A stretch of 64,000 nucleotides of DNA from Lacibacter sp. H407 (GTDB lineage Bacteria; Bacteroidota; Bacteroidia; Chitinophagales; Chitinophagaceae). Position 1 is the stretch's first letter, and each line of letters starts with the position of its first letter. Below are positions 57,270-64,000 of the stretch, piece by piece. The DNA lies in the NCBI RefSeq assembly GCF_037892605.1, contig NZ_JBBKTU010000002.1:124001-188000 (forward strand), given 5' to 3'. Both the position numbers and the translations under genes were made by a program. The notes under the pieces are model-generated. The model ran no database searches and was not told the DNA's origin. It was given only the letters and a program-made list of their open reading frames with translations.

Positions 57270-57328
57270 GCAGGTTGTTTACTTCTGACCTTGACAATCA
57301 ATTGAAGTGAGCGAACCTGCATTTTTTT
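57270..57328 (+). terminator. Hairpin with T-run in the leuA leader, possible attenuator
   Basis: GCAGGTT (57270-57276) pairs with AACCTGC (57314-57320); inside, ACTTC (57281-57285) pairs with GAAGT (57304-57308); seven T follow (57322-57328). This intrinsic-terminator shape ends 18 bp before the leuA ATG. No leader ORF rich in Leu codons was found, so the signal, if any, differs from that of the ilv leader. Confidence 0.6.
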
Positions 57329-57346: not shown

Positions 57347-58507
57347 ATGGCCAACAAACAAGTGTTCATTTTTGATACCACTCTCAGAGACGGAGAGCAG
57401 GTGCCGGGATGCAAGTTAAACACTACAGAGAAAGTAGAACTGGCATTAAAACTGGAAGCATTAGGCGTTGATATTATTGAAGCGGGATTTCCGATTTCAA
57501 GTCCGGGCGACTTTGAAAGTGTGAACCAGATCTCCAGAGTAATAAAAAATGCAACCGTGTGCGGGTTAACCCGTGCGGTGCAAAAAGATATTGAAGTGGC
57601 AGCCGAGGCGTTGAAGCCGGCTGTTCGTCCACGTATCCACACCGGAATCGGATCGTCTGACAATCACATTAAATACAAATTCAATTCCACCAGGGAAGAA
57701 ATACTTCAACGTGCCGTTAATGCTGTAAGACTTGCCCGTAATTATGTACCCGACGTTGAGTTTTATGCCGAAGATGCAGGTCGTGCAGACCTGCAATTTT
57801 TGGCGCAATTGACAGAAGCGGTGATTGCTGCCGGTGCAACGGTAGTAAACATCCCCGACACAACCGGTTTTTGTTTGCCGCATCAGTATGCAGAAAAGAT
57901 GGCTTACTTAATGAACAATGTAAGCAATATCGATAAAGCAATTCTTTCCTGCCATTGTCATAACGATCTTGGTTTAGCAACTGCGAATTCTATTGCAGGT
58001 GCTATTGCCGGTGCAAGACAAATCGAATGCACCATCAATGGTATTGGTGAGCGTGCCGGTAATACTTCGCTGGAAGAAGTGGTGATGACGATTCGCAAAC
58101 ATCCGGAACTCGAGTTGTTTACAAACGTTGATCCCAAGCAATTGTTACCGATGAGTCGTCTGGTAAGCGAAACCATGCGTATGGTGGTACAGCCAAACAA
58201 AGCAGTAGTGGGTGATAACGCATTCTCTCATTCATCTGGTATTCATCAGGATGGATTTTTGAAAGAAGCTACTACCTACGAAATTATTGCGCCGGAGGAA
58301 GTGGGTGCCGATACTTCGAAGATCGTACTAACGGCAAGGAGTGGCCGCAGTGCATTGGCGTACCGTTTTAAGAATCTTGGTTACAGTTTCGATCGTAACC
58401 AGGTAGATGAATTGTATGAGCGTTTTCTTACACTGGCTGATTCAAAGAAAGAAGTGGAAGATGCCGATTTAAAAACCTTAGCAGAACAAATTGCAATAAC
58501 AGTTTAA
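57347..58507 (+). CDS. leuA: 2-isopropylmalate synthase, short form without regulatory domain
   Basis: A 386-residue enzyme with the HMGL-like barrel: [16 protein letters not shown] with metal-binding Asp, [20 protein letters not shown], and [20 protein letters not shown] (His pair for divalent metal) followed by [16 protein letters not shown]. It ends about residue 386 after a short linker; the C-terminal LeuA allosteric domain of about 120 residues, which mediates leucine feedback in 500-residue forms, is missing. It condenses acetyl-CoA and 2-oxoisovalerate, the first committed step of leucine synthesis. leuC follows after 3 bp. Citramalate or homocitrate synthase are alternatives, but leuCDB next to it favours LeuA. 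Confidence 0.92.
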
Positions 58508-58510
58508 AGC

Positions 58511-59911
58511 ATGGCGAAATCATTATTTGAAAAAATCTGGGAACGTCACGTGGTGAAAACCATTGAAGGCGGTCCTTCTGTTTTATACATCGACACACAT
58601 TTTATTCACGAAGTAACCAGCCCCCAGGCGTTTAACGGTTTGAATAAAAGAGGCATCAAAGTTTTTCGTCCGAAGCAAACCGTTGCAACAGCCGATCATA
58701 ATGTACCAACACTCAACCAACATTTACCTATTAAAGAAGAGTTGAGCCGTAAGCAAGTGGAAGCATTGATCAAAAATTGTGGTGAACATGGCGTGGAGTT
58801 ATATGGTTTGGGACATCCGTATCAAGGCATCGTGCATGTTATTGGTCCGGAGTTGGGAATTACTCAACCCGGTTCAACGATTGTTTGTGGTGATAGTCAT
58901 ACATCCACGCATGGTGCGTTTGGTGCTATTGCATTTGGTATTGGAACCAGCGAAGTGGAAATGGTGTTGAGTACGCAATGTTTGCTGCAAAGCAAACCAA
59001 AACTGATGCGCATCAACGTGGAAGGTGAATTAAACAAAGGTGTTGTATCGAAAGATATCGTGTTGTACATCCTTGCGCAGATATCAGCAAGCGGTGCCAC
59101 CGGTTATGCAGTGGAGTTTGCAGGAAGTGCTATTCGCTCATTGAGTATGGAAGCACGCATGACCATTTGTAATATGAGTATTGAAATGGGCGGACGTTGT
59201 GGTTTGATTGCGCCCGATGAAACAACCTTCAACTATATAAAAGGAAGAACATTTGCTCCGGCGGGTGAAGCTTGGGACAAAGCGTTGGCGCATTGGAAAA
59301 CATTGTTCAGCGATGCAGATGCAATATTCGATAAAGAAATCAATATCAATGCAGCCGATATTGAACCAATGATCACGTACGGAACAAATCCGGGCATGGG
59401 CATCAGTGTAAATGAAACAATACCTACTGCTGCTACCATCAATGAGAATGATAAATCGGGTTTAAGCAAATCACTTGCCTACATGGGCTTGCAGGAAGGC
59501 ACACCGATTAAAGGACAGAAAGTGGATTATGTTTTCATTGGCAGTTGCACCAACAGTCGCATTGAAGATCTGCGTATGGTTGCATCATTTGTAAAAGGAA
59601 AGAAGAAAGCCGATGATGTGGAAGTATGGATCGTTCCGGGAAGTAAACAAGTAGAAGCGCAGGCAAAAGCAGAAGGCATTGACAAAGTATTTGAAGAAGC
59701 AGGATTTGTGTTACGTCAGCCGGGTTGCAGTGCATGTCTCGGTATGAATGAAGATAAAATTCCTGCAGGTAAATATTGCATCTCTACTTCCAACAGAAAT
59801 TTTGAAGGAAGGCAAGGTGCAGGTGCAAGAACATTGCTGGCAAGTCCGTTAACAGCAGCTGTTGCAGCCATCACCGGCAAAGTAGGGGATGTAAGAGAAT
59901 TTTTGAATTGA
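58511..59911 (+). CDS. leuC: 3-isopropylmalate dehydratase, large subunit
   Basis: A 466-residue aconitase-family protein. It shows [18 protein letters not shown] at the start, [20 protein letters not shown], and the three [4Fe-4S] cysteine positions: [13 protein letters not shown] (one Cys) and [11 protein letters not shown] (two). Length is normal. With LeuD it isomerises 2- to 3-isopropylmalate. It starts 3 bp after leuA and precedes leuD by 23 bp, so operon membership is clear. Confidence 0.97.
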
Positions 59912-59934
59912 TAACAGATAATGAATAATTGATA

Positions 59935-60522
59935 ATGGCAAAAGCATTTACAACGATATCGGGCCGGTTTGTTCCACTTAACATTGAGAATGTTGATACG
60001 GATCAGATCATCCCTGCACGATTTTTAAAAGCAACTACAAGAGACGGGTTTGGTAAAAATCTGTTTCGTGACTGGCGTTATGAAAACGATGATGAAACAA
60101 AACCCAAACCAGATTTTGTATTGAATCAACCGCAATACAAAGGCGAAATTTTAGTAGCCGCCAAAAACTTTGGTTGCGGTTCATCACGGGAACATGCTGC
60201 ATGGTCGATCCAGGACTATGGTTTCAACGTAGTAGTGAGCAGTTTCTTTGCAGATATATTTAAGAATAATGCACTCAATAATGGCGTATTGCCTGTAACC
60301 GTTTCGGAACCTTTTCTTCAAACCATTTTTGCATTGGGGAATGAAGCAACGCTCACCATCGATCTCGAAGCACAAACCATTACGATTGATGCTACGGGTG
60401 AAAGTGAATCGTTCGAGATCAATGCATACAAAAAGACATGCATGATCAACGGGTATGATGATATTGATTATTTGCTGAGTATAAAAGAAGATATTATAAA
60501 CTACGAAAACACAATTGCCTGA
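59935..60522 (+). CDS. leuD: 3-isopropylmalate dehydratase, small subunit
   Basis: About 195 residues, starting at the ATG at 59935 ([16 protein letters not shown]) rather than the in-frame TTG two codons earlier. Swivel-domain motifs: [20 protein letters not shown] and [19 protein letters not shown], with the substrate-binding Ser/Arg, then [20 protein letters not shown]. It partners LeuC. It ends 2 bp before leuB, so translation is probably coupled. Confidence 0.97.
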
Positions 60523-60524
60523 TC

Positions 60525-61640
60525 ATGGAAAAAAAGATCGCTATATTAAACGGAGATGGGATTGGTCCTGAAGTAACGGCCCAGTCCATTAAAGTATTAA
60601 ACGCCATTGCACATCAATACGGACATATATTTCATTATAAAGAAGCATTGATCGGTGCCGATGCGATTGACAAAACAGGCGAAGCATTACCGTCGGAAAC
60701 AGTTGACATTTGTTTAGACAGTGATGCTGTTTTGTTTGGTGCGGTTGGTCACCCCAAGTATGATAATGATCCTTCTGCAAAGGTTCGTCCGGAGCAAGGT
60801 ATTCTCGGTATCCGCAAAGCATTACAGTTGTTTGCCAATATTCGTCCGGTTACTACTTATCCAACGCTACAACATTTATCACCTTTAAAACCTTCACAAT
60901 TGGAAGGTGTTGATTGCGTCATCTTCCGTGAGTTGACCGGTGGTATTTATTTTGGTAAGAAGTCAACCAGTGAAGATGGAAACAGTGCAAGCGATGAATG
61001 TTATTACACACGTCCGGAGATCGAACGCATTACACATCTTGCATTCAAGTATGCACAGAACAGGAAGAAGAAAGTAACGCTGATCGATAAAGCCAATGTA
61101 TTGGAAACATCAAGACTGTGGCGCAAAGTGGTGCAGGAAATTGCACCGCAGTACAGCGATATTACCATTGACTATATGTTTGTTGATAATGCTGCCATGC
61201 AGATGATCTTAAACCCCAAACAGTTTGATGTTGTATTAACGGAAAACATGTTTGGTGATATCATCAGCGATGAAGCAAGTGTATTAAGCGGATCATTAGG
61301 TATGTTGCCTTCTGCATCTGTTGGTAACGGAACGGCATTGTTTGAACCCATTCATGGTTCGTATCCGCAAGCTGCCGGAAAAGATATTGCCAACCCAACA
61401 GGCTCAATTTTATCAGCTGCGATGTTGCTCGATCATTTTGGTTTACATGCGGAAGCGCAGGTGATCCGTGAAGCAGTTGACTGGACACTCCAAAACAATT
61501 TTGTTACAAAAGATATTGATCCGGTGAATTTTTATTTTACCAGTACCATTGGTGATCTCATCAGCGATTATGTATCGGGCAAAATTCCCGGTTCTGTGAA
61601 GAAAGAGAATATTGAGTTGCGTAAGTCGACGATTATTTAG
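60525..61640 (+). CDS. leuB: 3-isopropylmalate dehydrogenase
   Basis: A 371-residue isocitrate/isopropylmalate dehydrogenase-family protein. Motifs: AILNGDGIGPEVTAQS, GAVGHPKYDNDPSAKVRPEQ with LGIRKALQLFANIRP (substrate arginines), the metal/substrate segment TENMFGDIISDEASVLSGSL, and the NAD-binding IHGSYPQAAGKDIANPTGSI; the latter has no Arg/Tyr pattern of NADP enzymes. It oxidises and decarboxylates 3-isopropylmalate to 2-oxoisocaproate. It is the last leu gene; after its stop comes the promoter of the ilv transcript. Confidence 0.97.
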   Translation: MEKKIAILNGDGIGPEVTAQSIKVLNAIAHQYGHIFHYKEALIGADAIDKTGEALPSETVDICLDSDAVLFGAVGHPKYDNDPSAKVRPEQGILGIRKALQLFANIRPVTTYPTLQHLSPLKPSQLEGVDCVIFRELTGGIYFGKKSTSEDGNSASDECYYTRPEIERITHLAFKYAQNRKKKVTLIDKANVLETSRLWRKVVQEIAPQYSDITIDYMFVDNAAMQMILNPKQFDVVLTENMFGDIISDEASVLSGSLGMLPSASVGNGTALFEPIHGSYPQAAGKDIANPTGSILSAAMLLDHFGLHAEAQVIREAVDWTLQNNFVTKDIDPVNFYFTSTIGDLISDYVSGKIPGSVKKENIELRKSTII

Positions 61641-61685: not shown

Positions 61686-61716
61686 TTTGTTTATTAAATT
61701 TCAGGCGGTATATTCG
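61686..61716 (+). promoter_or_regulatory. Promoter of the ilv leader
   Basis: TTTG (61686-61689), 19 bp, then TATATTCG (61709-61716). The same -7 octamer occurs before the arabinose operon. Initiation would be about 61723, giving a short 5' end before the leader ORF at 61734. A small palindrome GTTGTACAAC (61716-61725) overlaps the probable start site. Confidence 0.6.
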
Positions 61717-61733
61717 TTGTACAACAAACAACG

Positions 61734-61835
61734 ATGTTGAAAAGCAGCATATATAATGTACTCAGTTTAACCACACTAATTATTGTGGTAGTCATTATTA
61801 TTCCTGCGATCAACGGAGGTGCAAGTTGTATGTAA
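61734..61835 (+). CDS. Branched-chain leader peptide (33 aa) of the ilv operon
   Basis: ATG at 61734 to TAA at 61833-61835. The peptide begins MLKSSIYNVLSLTTL and continues IIVVVIIIPAINGGASCM; residues 15-23 are nine consecutive Leu/Ile/Val residues (codons 61776-61802). The order resembles enterobacterial IlvL/IvbL leader peptides (runs of Val/Ile before IIIPP). It is followed by a terminator just ahead of ilvE. The role is to sense charged tRNA-Ile, tRNA-Val and tRNA-Leu by ribosome stalling. The ORF has no clear Shine-Dalgarno, as is common in Bacteroidota. Confidence 0.85.
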   Translation: MLKSSIYNVLSLTTLIIVVVIIIPAINGGASCM

Positions 61836-61888
61836 CAAACAAAACGAATTAACATAACGACCCGCCTCCAAAAGAGGCGGGTTTTTTT
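61815..61888 (+). terminator. Attenuator: terminator and competing antiterminator before ilvE
   Basis: Terminator: ACCCGCCTC (61860-61868), loop CAAAA, GAGGCGGGT (61874-61882), with seven T at 61882-61888. Antiterminator: GGAGGTG (61815-61821, inside the leader ORF) can pair with CGCCTCC (61863-61869) over 7 bp including one G-U, which excludes the terminator. An upstream hairpin ACCACA/TGTGGT (61770-61789) overlaps the Ile/Val codons. A ribosome stalled on 61776-61802 leaves GGAGGTG free; one at the stop codon covers it. Confidence 0.8.
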
Positions 61889-61914
61889 ATTACCGCTACA
61901 AAAGGAAAAAGTGT

Positions 61915-62838
61915 ATGGCAACTTATTACAACAGTGAAACGATTTTGTATCTCAACGGTGAGTATGTAAAAGCAGCAGAAGCAAAAATGGACCTCTACAG
62001 TCAGAGTTTTCATTATGGCTACAGTGTGTTTGAAGGTATCCGTTCGTACAAAACAGTGAATGGTGAAACGAAAATTTTCAAAGCCAAAGAGCATTACGAT
62101 CGTTTAAAACGTTCGGCTGAGTTAGTGAACCTTCCCTATCACTGGACAACAGAAGAGTTAACTGCTGTTACATACGAAGTGTTGAAGCGAAATGATCTGC
62201 AGGATGCATATATACGTCCCGTAGTTTATGCTCCGGCAAATATGAGTTTTGTGCAGAATGAACAATCGTTTCTTGTAATTGAAGTGTGGGCCATGCAACC
62301 GTTTCTTGGCGATAAGTTGTTACGGATCATGACCAGTTCATTTGAACGCCCCAATCCGAAGGCGTTCAAGATCGAAGCGAAAGCAGCAGGTCATTATGTA
62401 AACTCATTGCTCGCCAGTCATGAAGCAAAAGCAAAAGGTTTTGATGAAGCATTGCTGCTCGATATGAACGGCAATGTTGCAGAAGCGCCAGGTGCTAATT
62501 TGTTTTATGAAAAAGATGGCAAGCTCTTTACACCGGCAAAAGGGAATATCCTTCCCGGTATTACAAGAGCAACCGTGTTTGAATTGTGTGCTGAATTAGG
62601 AATAGAAGTAGAAGAAAAGATCTTTACAATAGATGAGTTGAAAAGTGCAGATGCTGTTTTTTATTGCGGCACTGCAGCAGAGGTAATTGGGTTTGATAGT
62701 TTGGATGATTACAAGTTTCCATTGAAGTGGAATGATTCAGCGAGTCGGAAAATTCAATTAGCTTATAAGAATCTTGTAATAGAAAGTGTATTGCCGCAAA
62801 GACACGAAGGCGCAAAGAAAGAAGAGGCATTAGCTTAA
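61915..62838 (+). CDS. ilvE: Branched-chain amino-acid aminotransferase
   Basis: A 307-residue fold-IV PLP enzyme. Key segments: ILYLNGEYVKAAEAKMDLYS, HYGYSVFEGIRSYKT, EAKAAGHYVNSLLASHEAKA with the PLP-lysine region, DEALLLDMNGNVAEAPGANL and FTPAKGNILPGITRATVFEL. It transfers amino groups to the 2-oxo acids of Val, Ile and Leu. The last dozen residues (LPQRHEGAKKEEALA) do not look like the family end; they are encoded by a copy of the repeat found between araB and araD. It is the first structural gene behind the attenuator. Confidence 0.96.
   Translation: MATYYNSETILYLNGEYVKAAEAKMDLYSQSFHYGYSVFEGIRSYKTVNGETKIFKAKEHYDRLKRSAELVNLPYHWTTEELTAVTYEVLKRNDLQDAYIRPVVYAPANMSFVQNEQSFLVIEVWAMQPFLGDKLLRIMTSSFERPNPKAFKIEAKAAGHYVNSLLASHEAKAKGFDEALLLDMNGNVAEAPGANLFYEKDGKLFTPAKGNILPGITRATVFELCAELGIEVEEKIFTIDELKSADAVFYCGTAAEVIGFDSLDDYKFPLKWNDSASRKIQLAYKNLVIESVLPQRHEGAKKEEALA
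62793..62824 (+). repeat. Dispersed repeat forming the 3' end of ilvE
   Basis: GCCGCAAAGACACGAAGGCG and the following CAAAGAAAG match the element at 38704-38732 at nearly every position. Here it is translated as the C-terminal tail of IlvE. Confidence 0.65.
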
Positions 62839-62846
62839 TAATATTA

Positions 62847-62913
62847 TGTCCCGTAGGGACAATTGGTCGGTAGCAAAAATAGGGGCGATGGTATTTGCGT
62901 TCCGTAGGAACGC
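62847..62913. repeat. Two GTA-loop hairpins in the ilvE-ilvD gap
   Basis: TGTCCCGTAGGGACA (62847-62861) and GCGTTCCGTAGGAACGC (62897-62913) are perfect stems of 6 and 7 bp around a GTA loop, with ATTGGTCGGTAGCAAAAA between them. Both follow the plan of short Bacteroidota extragenic repeats (from memory). The remaining bases to ilvD (63001) show no gene. Confidence 0.7.
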
Positions 62914-63001
62914 TTGATAAGAAAAATAGAATTACAGAACGTACAAGAGTGCGACGCAACAGAAGCTAAATAGAATAACAACAGACGATAACAAAAATAA
63001 A

Positions 63002-64000
63002 ATGGCTGAATTAAACAAGTATTCAAAAGTATTAACGCAGGATGAAACACAACCGGCTGCACAAGCCATGTTGTATGGCATTGGCTTAACAGAAGATGAT
63101 CTGAAAAAAGCACAGGTGGGTATTGCAAGTATGGGTTACGATGGGAACACTTGTAACATGCACCTGAATGATCTTGCAAAGGTCGTGAAAGAAGGTGTGT
63201 GGAAGAATGATCTCGTTGGTTTAATATTTAATACAATCGGTATTAGTGATGGTATCAGCAATGGTACGGACGGTATGCGTTATTCGTTGGTAAGCCGTGA
63301 TCTCATTGCAGACAGTATTGAAAGTGTTTGCGGCGGATTTTATTATGATGGTTTAATTGCATTACCGGGTTGTGATAAAAATATGCCGGGTGCTATTATG
63401 GCGATGGGTCGTTTGAATCGTCCTTCTATTATGGTGTATGGCGGAACAATTGCGCCGGGTCATCATAAAGGAGAAGAACTCAACATTATTTCTGCATTTG
63501 AAGCATTGGGTAAAAAATTGGCAGGCACGATTACGCCCGAAGATTTTAAAGAAGTGGTAAAACATAGCTGCCCGGGTGCAGGTGCATGCGGTGGTATGTA
63601 CACAGCAAATACCATGGCTTCTGCAATTGAAGCGCTGGGTATGAGCTTACCTTACTCCTCATCAAATCCTGCAATCAGTGATGAAAAAAAGAATGAGTGT
63701 TTAGATGCAGGAAGAGCAATAAAGGTTTTGTTAGAAAAAGATATTAAGCCAAAAGATATCATGACGAAGAAGGCTTTTGAAAATGCCATTGTTACCATCA
63801 TGATCTTTGGCGGAAGCACCAATGCTGTTTTGCATTTGATCGCTATGGCGAAAAGTGTAGACGTAGAATTAACGCAGGATGATTTCCAACGCATCAGTGA
63901 TAAAACGCCGGTGCTGGCAGATTTTAAACCAAGCGGAAAATATCTGATGCAGGAATTACATGCACATGGCGGTGTGCCTGCTGTAATGAAATACTTATTA
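63002..64000 (+). CDS. ilvD: Dihydroxy-acid dehydratase, N-terminal part
   Basis: ATG at 63002; the frame is open for 333 codons to the window edge, so the gene is cut. Motifs of IlvD/Edd proteins are clear: [20 protein letters not shown] with a cluster Cys, [36 protein letters not shown] with the second Cys, and [20 protein letters not shown] with the third Cys region, then [16 protein letters not shown]. It dehydrates 2,3-dihydroxy acids to the oxo acids of valine and isoleucine and carries an Fe-S cluster. It follows ilvE after a 163-bp gap filled with extragenic repeats; ilvB/N/C probably lie beyond (inference). Confidence 0.96.

Follow-up and report, generated by a model that had tools for sequence, protein, structure and literature searches.

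A likely ribosome-mediated transcription attenuator before the ilv operon, conserved across the Chitinophagaceae

Introduction

Between leuA-leuC-leuD-leuB and ilvE-ilvD-ilvB-ilvN-ilvC-ilvA in the genome of Lacibacter sp. H407 (Bacteroidota; Chitinophagaceae) lies an element that we hold, with high confidence, to be a ribosome-mediated transcription attenuator of the ilv operon. Its parts, their order and spacing, their conservation, covariation within the terminator and a constant position ahead of ilv genes are directly observed, both in the window (the whole stretch of DNA analysed, 64,000 nucleotides) and among relatives. This is very probably the classic mechanism of Escherichia coli, conserved here across a family in which it is hardly documented and in a phylum for which leader-peptide attenuation has already been proposed.

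A 2021 study of Flavobacterium psychrophilum, from the same phylum, reported "strong clues" for leader-peptide attenuation before amino-acid operons; its main text, with 0 occurrences of 'ilv', names no ilv element (PMC9723704). A study of B. thetaiotaomicron mentions, in an excerpt of its text, short ORFs reminiscent of leader peptides (PMC7366714). Leader-peptide attenuation of branched-chain synthesis is described, in excerpts of the respective papers, for actinobacterial leader peptides of ilvBNC and others, which belong to another phylum and other genes and to which the present element is likened by description (PMC10272879, PMC11857589, PMC1262725). Within the titles and abstract beginnings of the open-licence literature searched, this ilv element is not described in Bacteroidota. 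The work of Lopatovskaya et al. from 2010 may include Bacteroidetes already. At the locus itself no family of Rfam release 15 reaches its gathering score, the best being Thr_leader at 24.3 bits against 55, and annotation therefore misses the element.

Architecture of the ilv leader

All features of the window described here lie on the + strand. The genes leuA-leuC-leuD-leuB (57347-61640, named by NCBIfam) end directly upstream of the element, and the first regulated gene is ilvE, for a branched-chain aminotransferase (61915-62838; NCBIfam TIGR01122 above cut-off), whose product is 89-90% identical to IlvE of Lacibacter luteus and L. cauensis, both Chitinophagaceae. It is followed by ilvD (63002-64000), which runs past the window end, and then by ilvB, ilvN, ilvC and ilvA, these names being from NCBIfam as well. 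Between the two gene groups, the order is promoter, leader ORF with the antiterminator strand inside it, terminator and ilv genes. The initial annotation had proposed a promoter, a 33-codon leader with nine Leu/Ile/Val codons, the strand GGAGGTG and a terminator with seven T in this order, and every part and coordinate agreed base by base.

The promoter (61686-61716) comprises TTTG at 61686-61689, a 19-nt spacer and TATATTCG at 61709-61716, which by the general consensus is of the Bacteroidota type. Of 66 family regions, 28 match at all ten scored promoter positions; among 1320 copies of these regions with shuffled bases, 1 does. Directly 5' of the -7 element stands GGCGG (61704-61708), and a G-rich GGCGGGTG is frequent there in relatives, single positions being G in 34 to 49 of 59; this site may bind a factor or belong to the promoter. 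The idea that the -7 element lies in an operator-like inverted repeat was rejected, the counts being, with the exception of a few loci, about those of shuffled and cross-locus controls.

The leader ORF extends from the ATG at 61734 to the TAA that ends at 61835 and encodes an IlvL-like peptide of 33 amino acids, MLKSSIYNVLSLTTLIIVVVIIIPAINGGASCM. Codons 15-23 (61776-61802) are nine consecutive Leu/Ile/Val codons, CTA ATT ATT GTG GTA GTC ATT ATT ATT, and a run of at least seven contiguous such codons is found in 59 of 66 family leaders, commonly in the form III-VVV-III-P-A-x-x-G-G-G, in which the glycine codons are the antiterminator strand. Codon choice in the run departs from that of ilvE at the same 30 loci (GTC 29% vs 5%, ATT 88% vs 39%), and the window run contains both GTC and CTA, which make up 2.6% of Val codons and 2.7% of Leu codons, respectively, in 19 ORFs of the window. 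Further downstream, the antiterminator strand GGAGGTG (61815-61821) is complementary to CGCCTCC (61863-61869), within the intrinsic terminator ACCCGCCTC-CAAAA-GAGGCGGGT (61860-61888), a GC-rich hairpin with seven T. The 166-nt leader folds at z = -4.40, with 0 of 200 shuffles equally good.

The likeness to the ilvL attenuator before E. coli ilvGMEDA (ilvXGMEDA) includes a leader ORF with VVVIIIP, ilv genes downstream, a terminator with a T tract and, just 3' of the run, a G-rich strand whose partner is the terminator's 5' arm. It reaches the nucleotide level in the VVVIIIP stretch, where 20 bases of E. coli ilvL, GTGGTGGTGATTATTATCCC, are identical at 17 positions in the window and at 19 in relatives such as L008 (L and G numbers are our handles for loci and genomes). 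The two systems differ in that the Lacibacter element has other antiterminator and terminator sequences, a promoter of Bacteroidota type and the order leu genes, leader, ilvEDBNCA.

Conservation across the family and phylum

A search for IlvE at E<=1e-80 gave a match in 71 of the 195 family genomes, and exclusion of the match in G047, which starts at a contig edge, left 70 upstream regions. A leader ORF with a Leu/Ile/Val run, a terminator and a complementary antiterminator strand precede ilvE in 66 of the 70, which bears out the conservation that the initial annotation had proposed to check. The element is absent from the ilvE upstream regions L051, L055, L066 and L071. One genome whose ilvE region is without it, G004, carries it elsewhere: L085 (G004:C1:2567730-2567842) has a complete leader and terminator of the ilv type, with no leu or ilv gene within 1.5 kb on either side.

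A detector defined by at least eight Leu/Ile/Val in ten codons plus a terminator was run on 80 named loci, where it called 67 of 80 ilvE upstream regions. Of the reverse complements of these 80 regions it called 2, and of 80 stretches taken from within ilvE 1. An earlier script scan had called 72 of these 80 loci positive; read by eye, L142 and L166 were in the wrong frame (with a proper leader in another), L187 was doubtful, L191 had been missed and L182 had a partial leader. The 80 named loci overlap in part with the sampled family genomes, so that the two sets are not independent.

A covariance model built from the 66 family sequences matches 120 of the 195 family genomes at E<=0.01; for 107 of these the match reaches E<=4.4e-6. 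Among these 107 are 41 genomes that contributed no training sequence, and in 20 of the 41 the match was inspected. All 20 precede an ilv gene (ilvD in 19, ilvE in one), which lies about 90 to about 700 nt downstream of the leader, and 19 show at least seven Leu/Ile/Val in ten codons, the exception being L284, scanned from ATG. The family locus L107 precedes pheA, and reading by eye shows a Phe/Tyr-rich frame there; prephenate dehydratase is the best NCBIfam match for this pheA, at 209.3 bits against a cut-off of 219.

Across 395 genomes of the phylum the model matched 52, and of the 30 matched loci that were examined 20 lie outside the family. Six of the 20 precede ilvE, five an ilvN-like gene (one with only 22% identity) and two ilvA; two stand before an aspartokinase gene with Thr/Ile leaders and one before hisG with a His leader, while four are without such context. 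For hisG and for one aspartokinase of the two, the assignment was confirmed by NCBIfam.

Pairing and covariation in the terminator and antiterminator stems

The initial annotation had called for compensatory changes in both stems. For the terminator these are plentiful: over the family sequences 92.7% of cells pair, compared with at most 56.9% in slid versions, and changes on both sides occur in seven of ten pairs, with 36 such cells against 8.2 in shuffles. For the antiterminator stem the expectation held in part. It is paired in 91.9% of cells (51-66% in slid versions), and six cells are changed on both sides against 1.1 in shuffles; only two pairs show such a change, a count that 114 of 500 shuffles also attain, so that within the family this stem leans on conservation more than on compensation.

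A complement of at least six pairs is present in 63 of 66 family regions. It beats dinucleotide shuffles at p<=0.05 in 58 of 66 and is not better in the other eight. Variants of the antiterminator and terminator strands within the family include GGAGGCG/CGCCTCC, GGAGGTG/CACCTCC, CAGAGGAGC/GCTTCTCTG and GGCGGG/CCCGCC. When the complement test was applied to a further 24 loci, most of them outside Chitinophagaceae and two of them from Chitinophaga (L152 and L155), p was at most 0.05 in 10 and above 0.1 in 14. Good complementary pairs outside the family include TGAGAAGG/CCTTCTCG (p 0.003) and GCTGTGAGA/TCTCACAGC and TTGATACAG/CTGTGTCAA (0.007 each), followed at 0.01 each by GTTGATACA/TGTATCAAC, TGCGAGG/CCTCGCA and GGTGAGAG/CTTTCACC. 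Some other families use different, yet complementary, antiterminator and terminator sequences.

Proposed mechanism

From this arrangement we infer that the leader is translated, that ribosomes can stall in it, that transcription can end at the terminator and that the operon responds to amino-acid starvation. RNA polymerase would start a few bases 3' of 61716, and a ribosome would begin the leader at once. Under a shortage of charged Ile, Val or Leu tRNA, the ribosome would stall within 61776-61802 and leave GGAGGTG at 61815-61821 free to pair with the emerging 5' arm of the terminator; the terminator would then come too late, and the polymerase would continue into ilvE-ilvD-ilvB-ilvN-ilvC-ilvA. 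When the amino acids are plentiful, a ribosome reaching the stop codon (61833-61835) would cover GGAGGTG, the terminator at 61860-61888 would form and transcription would end.

The initial annotation had stated both halves of this switch, a stall that frees the antiterminator and a stop that hides it, and both fit the window, where 15 nt separate the start of the antiterminator from the first base of the last Ile codon. This distance, taken from the last regulatory codon, is at least 13 nt in 51 of 66 family regions and shorter in 15, and in 58 of 66 the antiterminator would be covered by a ribosome at the stop codon. The ribosome footprint used in this geometry is a generally known value. Applied to E. 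coli ilvL, the same rule would have a ribosome stalled at the last Ile codon hide the antiterminator, and the rule is therefore crude. Ribosomes are described, in an excerpt of one paper, as covering up to 12 nt beyond the stop codon (PMC4833913).

To test the switch, equilibrium folding was run with the ribosome masked in, and it gave a mean terminator probability of 0.96 without a ribosome, 0.94 with a stalled one and 1.00 with one at the stop codon. It was dropped, since the terminator is near 1 in all states and E. coli ilvL likewise gives 1.0 in all of them. If the 3' arm of the terminator has yet to be made, the predicted mean probability of the antiterminator is 0.80 with a stalled ribosome, 0.93 without a ribosome and 0.00 with one at the stop codon; if the switch is real, it is kinetic. 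A 5' hairpin is present in the minimum-energy fold of the leader. For it to be a protector hairpin, enforcing termination when the leader is not translated, is not supported by the folding model, because the antiterminator is predicted also in the ribosome-free state.

Among other readings, the leader might encode a small functional hydrophobic protein, with a terminator that lowers ilv expression by a fixed amount. The peptide is indeed hydrophobic, and Pro-Ala is often conserved after the run, but the leaders differ from one run to another and yet keep their complement to the terminator, the codons of the run are biased, and other operons of this genome have leaders with Phe/Tyr, His, Thr or Trp runs suited to them, all of which leaves this reading very improbable. 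About equally slight is the chance that stalling is set by the nascent peptide, through an IIIPA-like motif, rather than by uncharged tRNA. In 37 of 66 leaders the run leads into [ILV]PA, and E. coli IlvL has IIIP too; yet Pro-Ala is missing in many relatives with intact structures (L007, L009, L061 and L068, for example), and the residues of the run fit the pathway in each operon.

Still fainter are the prospects of two readings that dispense with attenuation by a ribosome. Control of ilvE translation by a site-sequestering hairpin, rather than of transcription, could draw on the single predicted transcript that spans leader and ilvE; against it, the terminator is followed by a T tract and, across the 66 regions, ends 9 to 159 nt upstream of ilvE. 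A riboswitch or T-box, with direct and ribosome-independent sensing of a ligand or tRNA, would share the build of a terminator with an alternative pairing, but no Rfam match reaches its gathering score, and the ORF and its codon run would stay unexplained; we give it as little weight as the sequestering hairpin.

Leaders of other amino-acid operons

The enterobacterial Thr, His, Phe and Trp leaders have their likeness in the genome of the window too, where leaders with Thr/Ile, His, Phe/Tyr and Trp runs precede thrA, hisG, pheA and trpE; the comparison is with thrL and thrA of E. coli for the first and with HisL, PheL and TrpL of E. coli for the others. Before pheA (L245, C1 near 106695) the leader is MTINKGYRFFYFSFFYFRMKPGILLLKVN; it has a terminator, and a strand at the leader end is complementary to it. 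The hisG leader (L216, C1 near 3809953), MILNAHTHHHHTCPNR, also has a terminator, whose GGCTTAC is exactly complementary to GTAAGCC at the stop codon of the leader. The trpE leader (L262, C1 near 3381754) is MNKAIVNNQWWWHTTLRGL, again with a terminator; TrpE is the best NCBIfam match of the protein that follows, below cut-off at 400.8 bits against 517.7. Unlike the enterobacterial Thr leader, that of thrA (L205, C1 near 4003394), MNKIVAHITFNTLASSANGTTIITTTIR, has a hairpin around the stop codon (atccgc-TAA-gcggat) and no T tract, and may work differently from the other leaders. Such a stop-codon hairpin without a T tract is also seen before thrA in L196, L200-L203, L206 and L207.

Surveys of these leaders in 29 relatives, counted by rows and without a shuffled control, gave His leaders (at least four His in ten codons) in 18 of 20, with L232 doubtful, Phe/Tyr leaders (at least seven in ten) in 16 of 19 and Thr/Ile leaders (at least seven in ten) in 15 of 21. 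Trp leaders with at least three Trp in ten and a terminator precede trpE in 18 of 18 (L262-L279), 17 of them with WWW. Three loci of the thr, his and phe surveys (L221, L226, L240) lie near contig ends, are probably misanchored and were counted as misses.

A view that is somewhat more likely than not is that Chitinophagaceae, and Bacteroidota more widely, run an attenuator set like that of enterobacteria, with terminators in the ilv, his, phe and trp leaders and a thr variant with a stop-codon hairpin and no T tract. Such a phylum-wide set would be a more interesting point than the single ilv element. Ribosome-mediated attenuation requires a ribosome close to the polymerase, and if this view is true RNA polymerase and the leading ribosome would work in coupled fashion in this phylum; five leaders in one Bacteroidota genome, four with terminators, would make transcription-translation coupling directly testable. 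Bacteroidota start translation largely without Shine-Dalgarno pairing, and an internal GGAGG could then serve as an antiterminator, the ribosome not reading it as a Shine-Dalgarno site.

Two further features of the window lie outside the ilv leader. Upstream of leuA, a strong hairpin followed by seven T occupies 57270-57328 (+); a search for a leu leader there found no Leu-rich ORF by eye and no Rfam match, and in L255 and L256, the two relatives compared at leuA, nothing clearly resembles the hairpin. Between ilvE and ilvD, the gap (62839-63001) contains the small palindromes TGTCCCGTAGGGACA and GTTCCGTAGGAAC, which have the appearance of dispersed repeats.
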